DNA from: Marivita sp.
GTDB lineage: Bacteria; Pseudomonadota; Alphaproteobacteria; Rhodobacterales; Rhodobacteraceae
Length of the DNA stretch: 50,840 nt
Reading direction: 5' to 3'
Assembly: GCF_017643905.1 (NCBI RefSeq)
Contig: NZ_JAEPMO010000008.1
Location: forward strand, 1-50,840
The notes beneath the pieces are model-generated. The model did no database searches. It was given only the letters and a program-made list of their open reading frames with translations, and was not told the DNA's origin. Shown here one piece after another: positions 21,155 to 26,105 of this stretch. The translations under genes were made by a program, and so were the position numbers. Within the stretch, counting starts at the first letter, position 1. Every line of letters starts with the position of its first letter.

Positions 21155-21862
21155 TCAAAAGCGCACCAAGCGGTCTCTTGCCGCTTCATTGAGATTGTCG
21201 AGGTAGGTCTTGAGCAACGGCACCCGTCCTGGGCGGAACGAACGGTCGGTCACGTGCAGGTCCGACATGCGATCCAACCGGAACGCCCGGTAGTCATCGC
21301 GTGTGAGGCACCACGCCAGCAGACAATGCGATTGATCGAAGAGCATGATGCTCAGCGGTTTCACCTCGCGTTGAGTGGATGCGCCGTTTTTGTCAGTATA
21401 GGCAAAGCCGACGATCCGTTCGTCCCAACAGGCCTCGCGCAAGGTGCCTGAATCAATTGCGGGCAGGGCAGGCGGATGGAACCGGTGCGCCACCAGAACC
21501 GAATGGCGCAGCCGGTGCGCCTGCCGCTCTGGCAGTCGCGCGCGCAGCTTGGTCAAGGCGCTCCGGGCCGCGTCGGCCAGTGCCGGGTCACCCACAGCGG
21601 CCACCTCGCGAAGCCCAAGCACAAGCGCTTCGAGTTCGTCATCCTTGAAACCGAGCGGAGGCAGATGCGCGTCCTCGATCAGGGTGTAGCCAAACCCCGC
21701 TTCCCCGTCGATCACGGCGCCAAGTTCGCGCAGCGTGTCGATGTCGCGGTAGAGCGTGCGCGGGGACACGCTGGTCGCATCAGCCAACTGCGCCGCTGTC
21801 ACAGGGGCGGGCAGATTGCGCAGGGCTTGCATCAATTGGAACAGGCGATGGGTGCGGCTCAT
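21155..21862 (-). CDS. YafY-type transcriptional regulator, HTH-WYL
   Basis: A regulator of 235 residues. The N-terminal helix-turn-helix (about 1-60, with VSPRTLYRDIDTLRELG as recognition part) precedes a WYL domain (about 130-235), which usually senses a small ligand or nucleic acid. It is transcribed divergently from the GST-like gene with a 99-base gap, so autoregulation and control of that gene are likely. The signal sensed is unknown. Confidence 0.9.
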   Translation of the reverse strand: MSRTHRLFQLMQALRNLPAPVTAAQLADATSVSPRTLYRDIDTLRELGAVIDGEAGFGYTLIEDAHLPPLGFKDDELEALVLGLREVAAVGDPALADAARSALTKLRARLPERQAHRLRHSVLVAHRFHPPALPAIDSGTLREACWDERIVGFAYTDKNGASTQREVKPLSIMLFDQSHCLLAWCLTRDDYRAFRLDRMSDLHVTDRSFRPGRVPLLKTYLDNLNEAARDRLVRF

Positions 21863-21961
21863 ATCCCGAGCTTTCTACTATGCCAAACTTTCTACAGCAT
21901 GCTGACAAAAACTGATAGTGTGCCGCGCTACTTCTGAAGCAGCACTGACTTGGAGACCCAA
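21863..21961. promoter_or_regulatory. Divergent control region between WYL regulator and GST-like gene
   Basis: This 99-base gap holds a direct repeat CTTTCTAC (21871-21878 and 21888-21895, 17 bases apart) and, touching the second copy, a perfect palindrome CAGCATGCTG (21895-21904). Both are candidate operator elements for the WYL regulator. No convincing -35/-10 pair could be fixed by eye. Confidence 0.35.
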
Positions 21962-22684
21962 ATGCTCACACTCATCACCTATCCAGAAGGCTTTGACGAA
22001 CCCAGCCTCAGCCCGTTCTGCGTCAAGTCCATGATCCAGTTGGACATGTCGGGCGAAGACTGGCGGCCCGAATACGCAAATACGCCCTCAGAGGCCCCGA
22101 TTGGCCGTCTGCCTGCGCTGCGCACACCGGAAGGCGTGATCCCGGAAAGCGGGTTCATCCAGACCTATCTGGAAAAGCGCGGTGCGGAATTCTATCCCGG
22201 ACTGTCGTCCAAGGACAGGGTGCTGGGTCATGCCCTGATCCGCATGATCGAGGAACATCTGCGCGTCGCTGTTGCGCATGATCGGTGGTTGGATGATCGG
22301 TGCTGGGCCAAGCTGGTGCCCTTGGCCTTCGGCAGTATTCCGTCTCCGATGCGCCCCTTCATCGCCAATATGGTGCGGCGGCAGGTGCGGAATGGCCTGA
22401 AAGGGCAGGGTTTTGCCCGAATGACAGAGGACCACCGCATGCAATGCGTGACCCCGGACCTTGACTGTCTGACCGACCTGCTTTGGGACAAAAGCTTCCT
22501 GCTGGCCGATCATCCGACAGCCCCCGACACGATTGCAGTGCCGGTGCTCAGCATGTTGGCCGGGTTGCCCGCGGATACCGCGATCCGTCGCGCTGTGCGG
22601 GGGAATGAAACGCTGATGGGTTATATCCAGCGCGGACGTGCTACGCTCTATCCGAAATTCACCCGTTCCGCCGCTGCCGCGTGA
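21962..22684 (+). CDS. Glutathione S-transferase-like protein
   Basis: A 240-residue protein with a thioredoxin-like N-terminal half (LTLITYPEG ... SPFCVK, then IGRLPAL and ESGFIQTYLE) followed by a helical domain, as in GST/metaxin-like proteins. The Ser/Cys in SPFC is the likely catalytic position. The ATG at 21962 follows GGAGA; a TTG four codons earlier is in frame but would overlap that site. The last nine codons (FTRSAAAA region) are encoded by the left copy of the 29-bp repeat. A strong terminator follows. Confidence 0.82.
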   Translation: MLTLITYPEGFDEPSLSPFCVKSMIQLDMSGEDWRPEYANTPSEAPIGRLPALRTPEGVIPESGFIQTYLEKRGAEFYPGLSSKDRVLGHALIRMIEEHLRVAVAHDRWLDDRCWAKLVPLAFGSIPSPMRPFIANMVRRQVRNGLKGQGFARMTEDHRMQCVTPDLDCLTDLLWDKSFLLADHPTAPDTIAVPVLSMLAGLPADTAIRRAVRGNETLMGYIQRGRATLYPKFTRSAAAA

Positions 22685-22686
22685 CC
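22658..22686 (+). repeat. Left copy of 29-bp direct repeat (attL-like)
   Basis: It begins TTCACCCGTTCCGCC and ends GCGTGACC, and is identical to 23816-23844. Similarity continues for 12 more bases to 22698 with three mismatches, then stops. The bases to its left are GST coding sequence unrelated to those left of the other copy. Confidence 0.85.
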
Positions 22687-22713
22687 GTGTGTTTGGTCGT
22701 TTGGTTCCAAAAG

Positions 22714-22748
22714 TGGGCGGCACTTAAGCGCCGCCCATCCTATTTTTC
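22714..22748 (+). terminator. Intrinsic terminator after GST-like gene
   Basis: An 8-bp stem (TGGGCGGC 22714-22721, GCCGCCCA 22730-22737) closes an eight-base loop and is followed by a T-rich run TATTTTT at 22741-22747. On the opposite strand the hairpin is followed by CTTTT, so it may also work leftward. Confidence 0.8.
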
Positions 22749-23026
22749 GTTTGAGTCCGTTCAACCGCCGACGCAAAGCCAAACAGACTTCGCTTTCAGT
22801 ACCCGCTACTTACTTGGGCCAGCCGCGCCAATGAGCGCGGACATGCTCGACGCAACCGAACCGACGACGCCGATAGCGCCTGATCCACAAATGCTTACGC
22901 ATGCCCTTCTCCTTATGGTGAAGAGGGTTTCACTTGATGCGGCCGGATGTTTGTGGAATACTAGAGGTGCTAGTCGGTAGTTATCCATGGGTATCTGCCC
23001 GCGGTTTTTACTGCCTTTATTAGGGG

Positions 23027-23060
23027 AGCCAGGCCGATTGGTCTGGCTTTTCCCGTTTTA
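23027..23060 (+). terminator. Stem-loop resembling an intrinsic terminator inside the element
   Basis: AGCCAGGCC (23027-23035) pairs with GGTCTGGCT (23040-23048), with one G-T pair, around a GATT loop; TTT, CCCG and TTTTA follow. No gene ends just upstream, which suggests a non-coding transcript or an attenuator. Confidence 0.5.
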
Positions 23061-23061
23061 A

Positions 23062-23097
23062 GGTCTTTCGCGTTGGGCAGCGTCAGCGCGAAAGACC
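23062..23097. repeat. 11-bp inverted repeat
   Basis: GGTCTTTCGCG (23062-23072) and CGCGAAAGACC (23087-23097) are perfect inverted copies with a 14-base loop. It lies 13 bases after the terminator-like stem, and the two may belong to one structured RNA. Confidence 0.6.
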
Positions 23098-23121
23098 CCG
23101 GCCTCTTCTCATACCTACCTC

Positions 23122-23133
23122 CGTAGTACTACG
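23122..23133. promoter_or_regulatory. 12-bp perfect palindrome, possible operator
   Basis: CGTAGTACTACG is a perfect palindrome. Its CCGTAGTAC half recurs at 23788-23796, just inside the right end of the element. It could be a binding site for the winged-helix-like protein encoded at 23287 or for an outside recombinase; both ideas are inference. Confidence 0.3.
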
Positions 23134-23286
23134 ACGGTTCCCCGTCTGCATACAGAATACTGCAACTGTAGGCCCCGTGCAAGGCTGTGACCCGGGAAAA
23201 AGTTCGGTTCTGTATGTTCCGTAATTCAACTCTTGTTGTTTCGGCTTACATCTCGTGATAAGCGTTGTTTACAAGGGGAGATTGCT

Positions 23287-23793
23287 ATGAATGCTATTGG
23301 AAAACTTCAGGCTGAGCGTCAAAGGCTGGTGGAGCGACTGGACCAAATTGACAACATATTGCGTCAGTATGAGGAGCTACAGCGTATGGCTGAAAGCTAT
23401 TTTCTGGCTGATGAGACACCTGAAAATACGTCAATGGCGCGTACCGATTCGGATTCAATGCAGGCCAGCGAAGTTCAGAATTACTACATTCGTAATCGTG
23501 TGATGCCGGGCTTTCGTAGGCAAAAGACGCCTATGCAAGAATTTGAAAACATAGTGATTGAAATTCTGTCTGACGCGGATGCCCCGCTTGATCGAAGCGA
23601 TCTCTATACTGCGTTAACGGAGCGTGACGTGGTAATCGGGAGTCCAGATATGAACTCCGACCTCAACACACTGTCGGCACGTATGTCGCGCATGAAGGAG
23701 AAAGTCGTTAATGTAAGCGGCTTTGGATATTGGCTGAAAGATCGAGCCTTTCCGCCCGGAGGATACGACCCGGATGACGAAGTTGAGCCGTAG
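23287..23793 (+). CDS. Winged-helix-like protein with N-terminal coiled coil (cargo of the element)
   Basis: A 168-residue protein of unknown function. Residues 1-40 form a charged heptad-like helix (KLQAERQRLVERLDQIDNIL), a likely dimerising coiled coil. Residues 95-155 resemble a winged-helix domain of the type seen in restriction- and chromatin-linked HARE-HTH or similar wHTH proteins (APLDRSDLYTAL, then LNTLSARMSR, then GFGYWL). The ATG at 23287 follows AAGGGGAG. GC content and codon use are lower than in the neighbours, supporting recent acquisition. It is the only plausible gene in the direct-repeat-bounded segment. Confidence 0.78.
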   Translation: MNAIGKLQAERQRLVERLDQIDNILRQYEELQRMAESYFLADETPENTSMARTDSDSMQASEVQNYYIRNRVMPGFRRQKTPMQEFENIVIEILSDADAPLDRSDLYTALTERDVVIGSPDMNSDLNTLSARMSRMKEKVVNVSGFGYWLKDRAFPPGGYDPDDEVEP

Positions 23794-23815
23794 TACCTAC
23801 TTGGACTTACTATCC

Positions 23816-23844
23816 TTCACCCGTTCCGCCGCTGCCGCGTGACC
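23816..23844 (+). repeat. Right copy of 29-bp direct repeat (attR-like)
   Basis: It is identical to 22658-22686. On the minus strand it encodes the last eight residues and stop of RNase R. The 14 bases to its left (after the 23793 stop) belong to the element. Confidence 0.85.
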
Positions 23845-26105
23845 TTGCGCTTGGTCTTGGCGTCTTTCTTCTTGGCCTTGGCCACTTTGCGCTTGGGTCC
23901 ACCCTTGCCCTTGGGGCGTGTCCCGCGCCCCATGCGGCCTTTGCCGGATCCGCTTGGCAACTCGGCGTCCTGAAGCGTCAGCAGTTCCAGACCTATGCCC
24001 CCGGTGACAGGCGCGGCCTCGACCAGTTTCACGGTCACACGCTGGCCCAGACCGATCATCACGCCAGTGTCAGACCCCATCAGAGTCCCGGCGTCGGCGT
24101 CGAAATGGAAGTACTCGTTGCCCAGCGACCGGATTGGGATCAGCCCGTCAGCGCCAGTTTCGTCCAGCTTCACGAAGACCCCAAACCGCGCGATGCCGCT
24201 GATCCGACCGGTGAATTCGGCCCCGACCCGGTCCGACAGAAAGGCGGCGAGATAGCGGTCGGTGGTATCCCGTTCGGCCATCATCGACCGGCGTTCCGTG
24301 TCGCTGATATGCTGCGCGGTGGCTTCAAGTCGGTCGATATCTTCAGGCGACAGCCCGTCATCGCCCCAGCCATGGGCCTTGATCAGGGCGCGGTGAACGA
24401 TCAGATCGGAATAGCGCCGGATGGGCGATGTGAAATGCGCGTAGTTCTGTAGCGCAAGGCCGAAATGCCCAAAGTTCTCCGGGTTGTAATACGCCTGCGT
24501 CATGGACCGTAGCGTGGCGAGGTTGATCAATTCGGCCTCGTCTGATCCTGCCGCATCATGCAGCAGACGATTCAGTTGCGCGGTCTTGAGCACCTGCCCC
24601 TTGGCCAGCGTCAGACCCGCTGCCTCGGCAGTTTCGCGAAGCGACTCCATTTTCTCGGGCGGCGGTTCCTCGTGCACCCGGAACAGCAGCGGCGTGCGTT
24701 TGGCGATCAGCGTTTCGGCAGCCGATACATTGGCGAGGATCATGAACTCCTCGATGAGCTTGTGGGAATCCAGACGGTCGGCAAAGTTGACCGACTGAAC
24801 CGTCCCATCCTCGGCAAGCACGATTTTGCGTTCCGGCAGATCAAGGTCCAACGGCTGGCGCCGGTTGCGGGCCTCGCGCAGGGCTGCATAAGCGGCGTAA
24901 AGCGGGCGAATGATCTCGGACACAAGCGGCGCAACCTTGTCGTTCGGGTTGCCATCCATGGCAGCCTGAACCTCTTGGTAGTTCAGCGACGCGACCGACC
25001 GCATCAACCCGCGCTGAAAGCTGTGGCTGAGCTTGTTGCCATGCGCGTCGATCACCATGCGCACCGCCACACAGGCCCGCGGCACCCCTTCGTGCAGCGA
25101 ACACAGATCGCCAGACAGACGGTCGGGCAACATCGGCACCACGCGGTCTGGGAAATAGCTGGAATTGCCGCGCTTGCGCGCCTCTTGGTCGAGCGCAGAT
25201 CCAGAGGTCACGTAATGGGCCACATCCGCGATGGCGACCCAGATCACGTGGCCGCCCTCGTTCTTGGGATCATCGTCGGGGTACGCCAGACACGCATCGT
25301 CGCGGTCGCGGGCATCTATCGGATCGATGGTGATCAGCGGCATGTCCCGCATGTCGGTCCGACCCGAAAGGCCGGCCGGTTTCATCGCGTCCGCCTCGGC
25401 AATCACGTCGTCGGGGAAACTGTCGGGGATGCCGTGCTGGTGAATCGCGATCAGCGACACCGCGCGCGGGGCAGATGGGTCACCCAGCCGTTCGATGATC
25501 CGCGCACGTGGCAGGCCCATGCGCCCGGCGGGTCCGGCCTGTTCCGCCTCGACCAATTCGCCATCCTTGGCCCCGCCCGTCGCGTCTGGCGCAACCATCC
25601 ATTCCTTGTCCGACCCTTTGTCGATCGGCTTGATCCGCCCGCCTTCCGAGGATTTGGCAAAGATGCCCACCACTTTGCGCGGGTTCGAGCCGATGCGACG
25701 GATGAGCCGCGCCTCGTAATTGTGGTCTTCTTCATGCACCACCTGCAGGCGCGCAAGGATACGGTCGCCTTCGCCTAAAGCGGGGTCCGAGGCGCGCGGG
25801 ATCACGAGGATGATCGGCTCTACCCCTTCGCCGTGCCATTCCAACGCACGGGCATAGAGATCGCCGTCCGGCGTCGGTGCCTTCACTTGCAACACGCTCA
25901 CGGGCGGCAAACGATCCGGGTCGCGGTAGGTCTTCTTGCGCTTTTCAAGATGACCTTCGGCCTCCAGCTCTTTCAGCAGGCGCTTGAGGTCGATCCGCGC
26001 GGCACCTTTGATGCCAAAAGCTTTGGCAATGTCGCGTTTCGCGGTGAGGGTCGGGTTGGCGGCAATCCAGTCGAGAATGTCCGCCTTGGTCGGCAATTTG
26101 CTCAT
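23817..26105 (-). CDS. rnr: Ribonuclease R
   Basis: A processive 3'-5' exoribonuclease of 762 residues that degrades structured RNA. In order: N-terminal winged helix (1-60), cold-shock-type RNA-binding region (about 75-210), the RNB catalytic domain beginning with DPIDARDRDD at 261-270 (Asp261, Asp267, Asp269 and Asp270 as metal ligands), an S1 domain (about 640-720) and a Lys/Arg-rich tail. Length and order are normal for RNase R. The tail's final residues come from the right copy of the 29-bp repeat, yet the tail still reads as a typical basic extension, so the gene appears undamaged by the insertion. Confidence 0.95.
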   Translation of the reverse strand: MSKLPTKADILDWIAANPTLTAKRDIAKAFGIKGAARIDLKRLLKELEAEGHLEKRKKTYRDPDRLPPVSVLQVKAPTPDGDLYARALEWHGEGVEPIILVIPRASDPALGEGDRILARLQVVHEEDHNYEARLIRRIGSNPRKVVGIFAKSSEGGRIKPIDKGSDKEWMVAPDATGGAKDGELVEAEQAGPAGRMGLPRARIIERLGDPSAPRAVSLIAIHQHGIPDSFPDDVIAEADAMKPAGLSGRTDMRDMPLITIDPIDARDRDDACLAYPDDDPKNEGGHVIWVAIADVAHYVTSGSALDQEARKRGNSSYFPDRVVPMLPDRLSGDLCSLHEGVPRACVAVRMVIDAHGNKLSHSFQRGLMRSVASLNYQEVQAAMDGNPNDKVAPLVSEIIRPLYAAYAALREARNRRQPLDLDLPERKIVLAEDGTVQSVNFADRLDSHKLIEEFMILANVSAAETLIAKRTPLLFRVHEEPPPEKMESLRETAEAAGLTLAKGQVLKTAQLNRLLHDAAGSDEAELINLATLRSMTQAYYNPENFGHFGLALQNYAHFTSPIRRYSDLIVHRALIKAHGWGDDGLSPEDIDRLEATAQHISDTERRSMMAERDTTDRYLAAFLSDRVGAEFTGRISGIARFGVFVKLDETGADGLIPIRSLGNEYFHFDADAGTLMGSDTGVMIGLGQRVTVKLVEAAPVTGGIGLELLTLQDAELPSGSGKGRMGRGTRPKGKGGPKRKVAKAKKKDAKTKRKVTRQRRNG

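Follow-up and report, generated by a model that had tools for sequence, protein, structure and literature searches.

The question raised by this locus is how 1.1 kb of DNA (22687-23815) came to lie between two copies of a perfect 29-nt direct repeat, at the point where a gene for a GST-like protein and the convergent gene for RNase R (rnr) share their last codons. The window referred to below is the whole stretch of DNA analysed, 50,840 bases, from the genome labelled G000. In the initial annotation the insert was described as a non-autonomous integrative element using the rnr 3' end as attachment site. The reading preferred here is that the insert is probably a small, recombinase-less integrated element at the rnr 3' end, resembling a CIME and carrying what appears to be phage- and defence-linked cargo. 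CIMEs (cis-mobilizable elements) are described in passages of PMC5704250 as decayed ICEs or IMEs that keep their att sites. The features of the region are collected in the table.

Table. Coordinates and evidence for the features at and around the insert (window positions)
Feature	Position	Strand	Description	Evidence
GST-like gene	21965..22684	+	final codons within left repeat	GST_N_4 E 5e-17, other GST models
Left repeat copy	22658..22686		extends to 22698 with 3 mismatches	
Stem-loop, G+C-rich	22713..22738	+	terminator-like; outer (left) module end	
30-aa basic ORF	22810..22902 (with stop codon)	-		matches phrog_21154
Promoter-like TTGATG-17-AATACT	22934..22962	+	position conserved in L023	by eye
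Structured RNA candidate	22939..23052	+	helix 22939-22957/22984-23002, then terminator hairpin 23023-23052	
Inverted repeat	23062..23097		14-nt arms, 8-nt loop; between RNA and 168-aa gene	
168-aa gene	23287..23793	+	N-terminal long helix and C-terminal winged helix	homologues, predicted structure
Right repeat copy	23816..23844		extends to 23856 with 3 mismatches	
rnr (RNase R)	23817..26105	-	final codons within right repeat	RNB E 7e-98, S1, CSD2

The 29-nt repeat is the longest exact direct repeat of the window and extends rightward to 41 nt with three mismatches, while the leftward match ends immediately. The longest exact direct repeat was at most 15 nt in 200 dinucleotide shuffles of the region 22000-24600 and at most 18 nt in 30 shuffles of the whole window, which rules out a chance origin. 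The left copy supplies the C-terminus and stop codon of the GST-like protein and the right copy those of RNase R; the coordinates and reading frames agree with the initial annotation in this respect. It also holds, as proposed there, that a single repeat copy, the other being deleted with the insert, would leave the two convergent genes overlapping by 26 bp (22659-22684). The three mismatches right of the core are present as described, but the crossover within the repeat to which they had been ascribed is not their only explanation, and drift of a tail freed from selection accounts for them equally well. The GST-like protein takes its C-terminus from the strand antisense to the rnr tail, an arrangement such as an earlier insertion might have produced by fusion.

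The site was compared across 17 genomes of the genus, including G000, and rnr is present in every one. The GST-like gene is found next to rnr in 10 of them. Eight of these (G002, G004, G005, G011, G012, G013, G015 and G016) have a single repeat copy with overlapping GST and rnr 3' ends, which is the empty site that had been predicted, and two (G000 and G001) have an insert between the genes. In the seven genomes that have no GST-like gene at this place, rnr is adjoined by a transglycosylase-like gene (six genomes: G003, G007, G008, G009, G010 and G014) or by a transporter-like operon (an ABC transporter, in G006), as read by eye from translations. A block made up of a YafY-like regulator and the GST-like gene (window 21155-22684) adjoins rnr in 10/17 genomes and another gene does so in 7/17. 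The window's insert is of foreign origin, judging from its GC content (0.509 against 0.609 in the rest of the window, the lower value having been correctly annotated), the absence of its gene from the other 16 genomes of the genus, and its homology to a locus of another genus (L023, described below). Among the same 17 genomes no larger integrative form was found at rnr. In the family search no adjacent duplication of the rnr tail was found beyond G000, with weak sensitivity (any match in only 79 of 394 genomes); second rnr-tail matches in G278, G302, G413 and G422 lie on other contigs, are weak (E 1e-4 or worse) and are not adjacent duplications. The last 82 nt of rnr (window 23816-23897) are 94-96% identical among G000, G012 and G013, against 80-85% upstream, and this high identity may reflect either constraint or exchange of tails through past insertions and excisions.

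The second filled site is informative about the process of insertion. In G001 (locus L024) the GST-like gene and rnr are separated by 1277 bp of DNA (L024 5388-6664) unrelated to the window's insert, encoding a 367-aa DUF1963 protein (E 2.1e-8) and found in no other of the 17 genomes. Relatives of this protein occur in 11/325 family genomes, the best at 39% over part of the protein. The rnr tail of G001 is duplicated imperfectly over 82-84 nt (70/82 identities), and the sister of G001 in the rnr tree, G011, has an empty site. Compared with G011, the GST-side tail copy shows 5 differences in nt 1-84 and is unrelated from nt 85, and the rnr-side copy shows 12 differences in nt 1-83 and 7 in nt 84-300 (Fisher p 9e-4). 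Clear sites place the switch of this rnr-side copy between nt 83 and nt 139, and a single weak site narrows it to nt 83-86. The foreign-like tail resembles those of congeners, being 77/82 identical to G013 and 76/82 to G014 and G012. Because of this pattern of differences from G011, the native-like tail of G001 appears to have stayed with the GST-like gene and the foreign-like tail to have arrived with the insert, both switching near nt 83; G001 has in this way a replacement gene end supplied by the element and a displaced native end. One reciprocal crossover would account for both tail copies, and two unlinked events would require a coincidence. The rnr tail of the window itself shows no clear mosaic, the repeat copies being identical over 29 nt and the tail conserved across the genus (identity over nt 1-82 is 96% between G000 and G013 and 94% between G000 and G012). 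The stop codon of the DUF1963 gene abuts the left tail copy in L024.

With its unrelated insert, G001 is the second case of insertion at this junction. The rnr 3' end is therefore a recurrent target of insertion in the genus, receiving a single gene in one case and a module in the other. The part of the initial annotation that made the rnr 3' end an integration point is supported by the G001 insert and its reciprocal switch; the designation attachment site is still putative. G001 offers a readable crossover point. Short islands that have no recombinase are hard to recognise, and the rnr site permits a comparison of empty with filled states.

The insert of the window corresponds nearly exactly to one conserved module, beyond which it extends by no more than about 26 nt at its left end and about 22 nt at its right end. 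It had been described as carrying one gene, which needs correction: beside the 168-aa gene there are a conserved 30-aa ORF (minus strand, 22813-22902) and a conserved structured RNA. Stem-loops similar to that at the outer (left) end are located at the same place in L023 and in G405 (read by eye in G405). The absence of a recombinase was correctly noted, as neither the 168-aa protein nor the 30-aa peptide matched any recombinase or transfer family; no integrase was found near either end of the 1.1-kb insert, and no integrase fragment was noted in it. Identity as an IS or DDE transposon was rejected, there being no inverted repeat pair joining the insert ends and no transposase match.

In an alignment of five sequences, the long helix of the RNA candidate together with its terminator hairpin comprises 33 pairs, with 93.3% of cells paired; 10 pairs are changed on both sides, and none of 500 shuffles scored as high. 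In an inner fold that competes for these bases, both sides have changed in 6 pairs, and 1 of 500 shuffles scored as high. Four of the five aligned sequences had served to propose the long helix in the first place, which biases the slide control towards it, and the alignment is small. MFE folds of single sequences gave the long helix in L023 (z -8.9), L097, L145 and L098, and the inner fold in the window (z -3.4). The inner fold is also favoured by the putative promoter, which would start the transcript inside the long helix, in conflict with the covariation of that helix; this promoter-like sequence was below threshold and not reported in a promoter scan. No Rfam family matched at gathering threshold in window 22000-24600 and four relative loci, where only below-threshold matches were obtained. 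A model of the RNA gave matches in 163/374 genomes of the family at E<=0.01, only three of them above 75 bits (G355, G000 and G405) and the remainder at most 38.2 bits. Seven weak matches were inspected and resembled ordinary terminator hairpins near gene ends, and a clear homologue of the 30-aa peptide was present only at the three strong loci among 30 checked; only G355, G000 and G405 were counted as real relatives of the RNA.

The 168-aa product is predicted to be a coiled-coil/winged-helix protein, that is, to have a DNA-binding fold. The AlphaFold2 model, made from two sequences, has a pLDDT of 74.1 and a pTM of 0.48, and the best Foldseek matches to it are winged-helix domains, none at E<=0.001. 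The gene has a pN/pS of 0.33 relative to L023. The product belongs to no Pfam family, and assignment to a known family was rejected, the matches in Pfam, PADLOC and NCBIfam being weak only; those to Csx1 (E 0.0028) and PhoB (E 0.0056) are taken as chance or as a generic winged-helix signal. In PHROGs it matches phrog_4665 (E 9.3e-5), with no stretch passing alone. Relatives of the protein were found in none of the viral contigs, plasmids and phages searched. The 30-aa ORF is preceded by a purine-rich, ribosome-binding-like stretch (by eye) and has homologues in L023, L097 (G604) and L098 (G607). All four intact peptides match phrog_21154, a phage protein family of unknown function (E 1.2e-6 for the window, and 5.7e-6, 2.1e-6 and 0.0012). 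Between the window and L023, pN/pS is 0.42 in the frame of this ORF against 0.81-1.63 in the other five frames. The peptide gave no useful match in plasmids and phages, which is weak evidence with so short a query.

Relatives of the module were found, whole or in part, elsewhere in the order Rhodobacterales. The window and L023, from a MAG of Actibacterium (a member of this order), share 67% DNA homology across 22810-23772, in coding and noncoding parts alike, and the 168-aa homologue of L023 is 65% identical; L023 was the sole such locus in the contig collection searched. Homologues of the 168-aa protein were counted in 2/61, 2/394 and 7/390 genomes, each count including the window's own genome; G355 and L023 appear to be the same genome. 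G405 (L145 9072-9171) retains the RNA, but its small ORF is interrupted at codon 3 and the 3.1 kb compared there contain no relative of the 168-aa gene; in L099 (G667) and L040 (G048) the larger protein is present with no clear small ORF or RNA. The initial annotation had anticipated relatives with an integrase nearby, and two are known now: in L023 about 150 bp separate the end of the module from a tyrosine integrase gene, and in L098 the distance to another such gene is about 1.3 kb. Other neighbours are a MerR-type protein, phage tail genes and a McrC-type protein (McrC by Pfam) in L023, a phage exonuclease-type protein in L098, a serine recombinase and McrB- and McrC-like genes (by eye) in L099, and, also by eye, a transposase, an MT-A70-like methyltransferase and an endonuclease-like gene in L097 and restriction-modification-like and transposase genes in G405. 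From these neighbourhoods the cargo is taken as phage- and defence-linked. It is a conserved RNA-protein module that is listed under a function in no library searched, and it adds a conserved RNA and two protein families, both uncharacterised, in the vicinity of restriction and phage genes. As a guess from the neighbourhood, it most likely acts as an accessory in regulation or defence, where expression would be under the control of its RNA and winged-helix protein.

The proposal that the 29-bp repeat is a recombinase attachment core found no direct support. Five donor-type loci match the rnr tail exactly over 13 nt at most, an exact-pattern scan of viral contigs found neither module nor rnr-tail DNA patterns, and the repeat in G001 ends at nt 82-84 instead of nt 29. 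The insert DNA had no match in plasmids and phages. When G355 was searched for a sequence that could serve the L023 integrase region as att partner, 41 mostly short matches were returned, the best non-self match being 30 nt (E 0.002), and they gave no interpretable partner.

For the integrated element preferred here, the following course may be suggested. A circular or otherwise carried DNA would have borne a short copy of the rnr tail, which would have recombined with the chromosomal rnr tail by one reciprocal crossover, the recombinase acting in trans or having since been lost. Entry would have been at the junction where the final codons of the two convergent genes coincide. With a tail copy supplied by the element, neither gene would lose its end, and the insertion would be harmless. 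The insertion was presumably done by a site-specific recombinase, with the window's 29-bp repeat as the crossover zone. Against the integrative reading count the lack of a recombinase in the insert and of one identified in trans, and the difference in repeat length between the two insertions (29-41 nt in the window, 82-84 nt in G001), which speaks against one fixed core. The initial annotation as a non-autonomous integrative element was largely right and is partly supported, by insertion at a site empty in eight relatives, by the second insert and by the integrase-linked relatives, the repeat as attachment core being putative.

A prophage or integrative element of larger size may once have occupied rnr and then lost its integrase and other genes, so that the cargo persisted between the former att sites. 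Such a remnant would be one form of the integrated element, not its opposite, and is regarded as possible though rather unlikely. The homologous modules beside integrase and phage genes in L023 and L098 speak for it; however, the insert is almost exactly the conserved module, with little more than the short flanks given above and no integrase fragment noted, and no relative was found to have an integrase at rnr.

The main rival, to which a somewhat lower likelihood is assigned than to such a remnant, is homology-assisted illegitimate recombination of linear donor DNA, with no site-specific recombinase involved. The rnr tail of a relative, together with a different neighbouring gene, would have recombined within rnr, and the other end of the donor DNA would have been joined at random within the resident tail, of which a stub would remain beside the GST-like gene. 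Such a route is consistent with the lack of a recombinase in both inserts, with the unequal length of the repeats, with the congener-like foreign tail of G001, and with the variation of rnr neighbours in the genus (a transglycosylase in six and an ABC transporter in one of the seven GST-less genomes). It would, however, make a coincidence of the agreement in G001 between the end of the stub (nt 84) and that of the foreign tail (nt 83-86), although the right switch is loosely bounded. Moreover, no examined congener has either insert beside rnr (n=17, the carriers apart), and both inserts lie at the same few nucleotides of the gene end. A simple tandem duplication or an assembly error is very improbable: the genome is a 274-contig assembly, but the insert is surrounded by normal flanks within a contig of 50,840 bases, it is intact, a homologous module occurs in other genera, and G001 shows a comparable event. 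A tandem duplication was rejected since it would not bring foreign DNA.

A more far-reaching proposal, which is speculative and held with little confidence, is that the roughly 120-nt two-fold RNA, the divergent basic protein of about 30 aa and the coiled-coil/winged-helix protein form a mobile unit of a type not described before. This unit would travel among phages, defence islands and chromosomes of Rhodobacterales, would be able, with no recombinase of its own, to insert at the rnr 3' end through the host tail as crossover zone, and would represent a new regulatory or anti-phage system.

Several known systems resemble the locus in part. Islands at dusA are said to be integrase-bearing and to integrate in a protein-coding gene. 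Integration at a gene end or start, an intact gene and direct repeats are features in which they are similar to the window's insert. Islands at tRNA 3' ends (PMC11476347) show the same likeness, having direct repeats and a target gene that stays intact although the island integrates at its end. Both the dusA and the tRNA islands carry an integrase, unlike the window's insert. CIMEs, as far as characterised in passages of PMC5704250, have cargo between two att-like repeats at a host gene end and no integration or transfer genes; the last point holds for the 168-aa and 30-aa products, and the 29-bp direct repeats and empty sites fit retained attL and attR, the att role of the repeats being putative. 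However, the window's insert is only 1.1 kb long and holds one module, and no parent ICE or IME was found at rnr in the 17 genomes of the genus. The H47 island of E. coli, in the portion of PMC5426353 that concerns it, is a small island with direct repeats at its flanks that excises between them with no recombinase of its own, excision having been demonstrated by PCR. Its repeats, in contrast, are 148 and 144 bp long and imperfect, and its target and cargo are different. No report of insertion into rnr or the RNase R gene came up in the literature search, where 'rnr' in one paper stands for ribonucleotide reductase, and such a report may exist elsewhere.

Morons of phages are compact units with their own promoter-like and terminator signals, inserted between genes. 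The window's insert is likewise a compact unit with promoter-like and terminator signals between genes, but it lies on a chromosome and is flanked by repeats of a host gene. As a separate observation, relatives of the 168-aa protein are located near McrBC-type restriction genes in L099 and L023.
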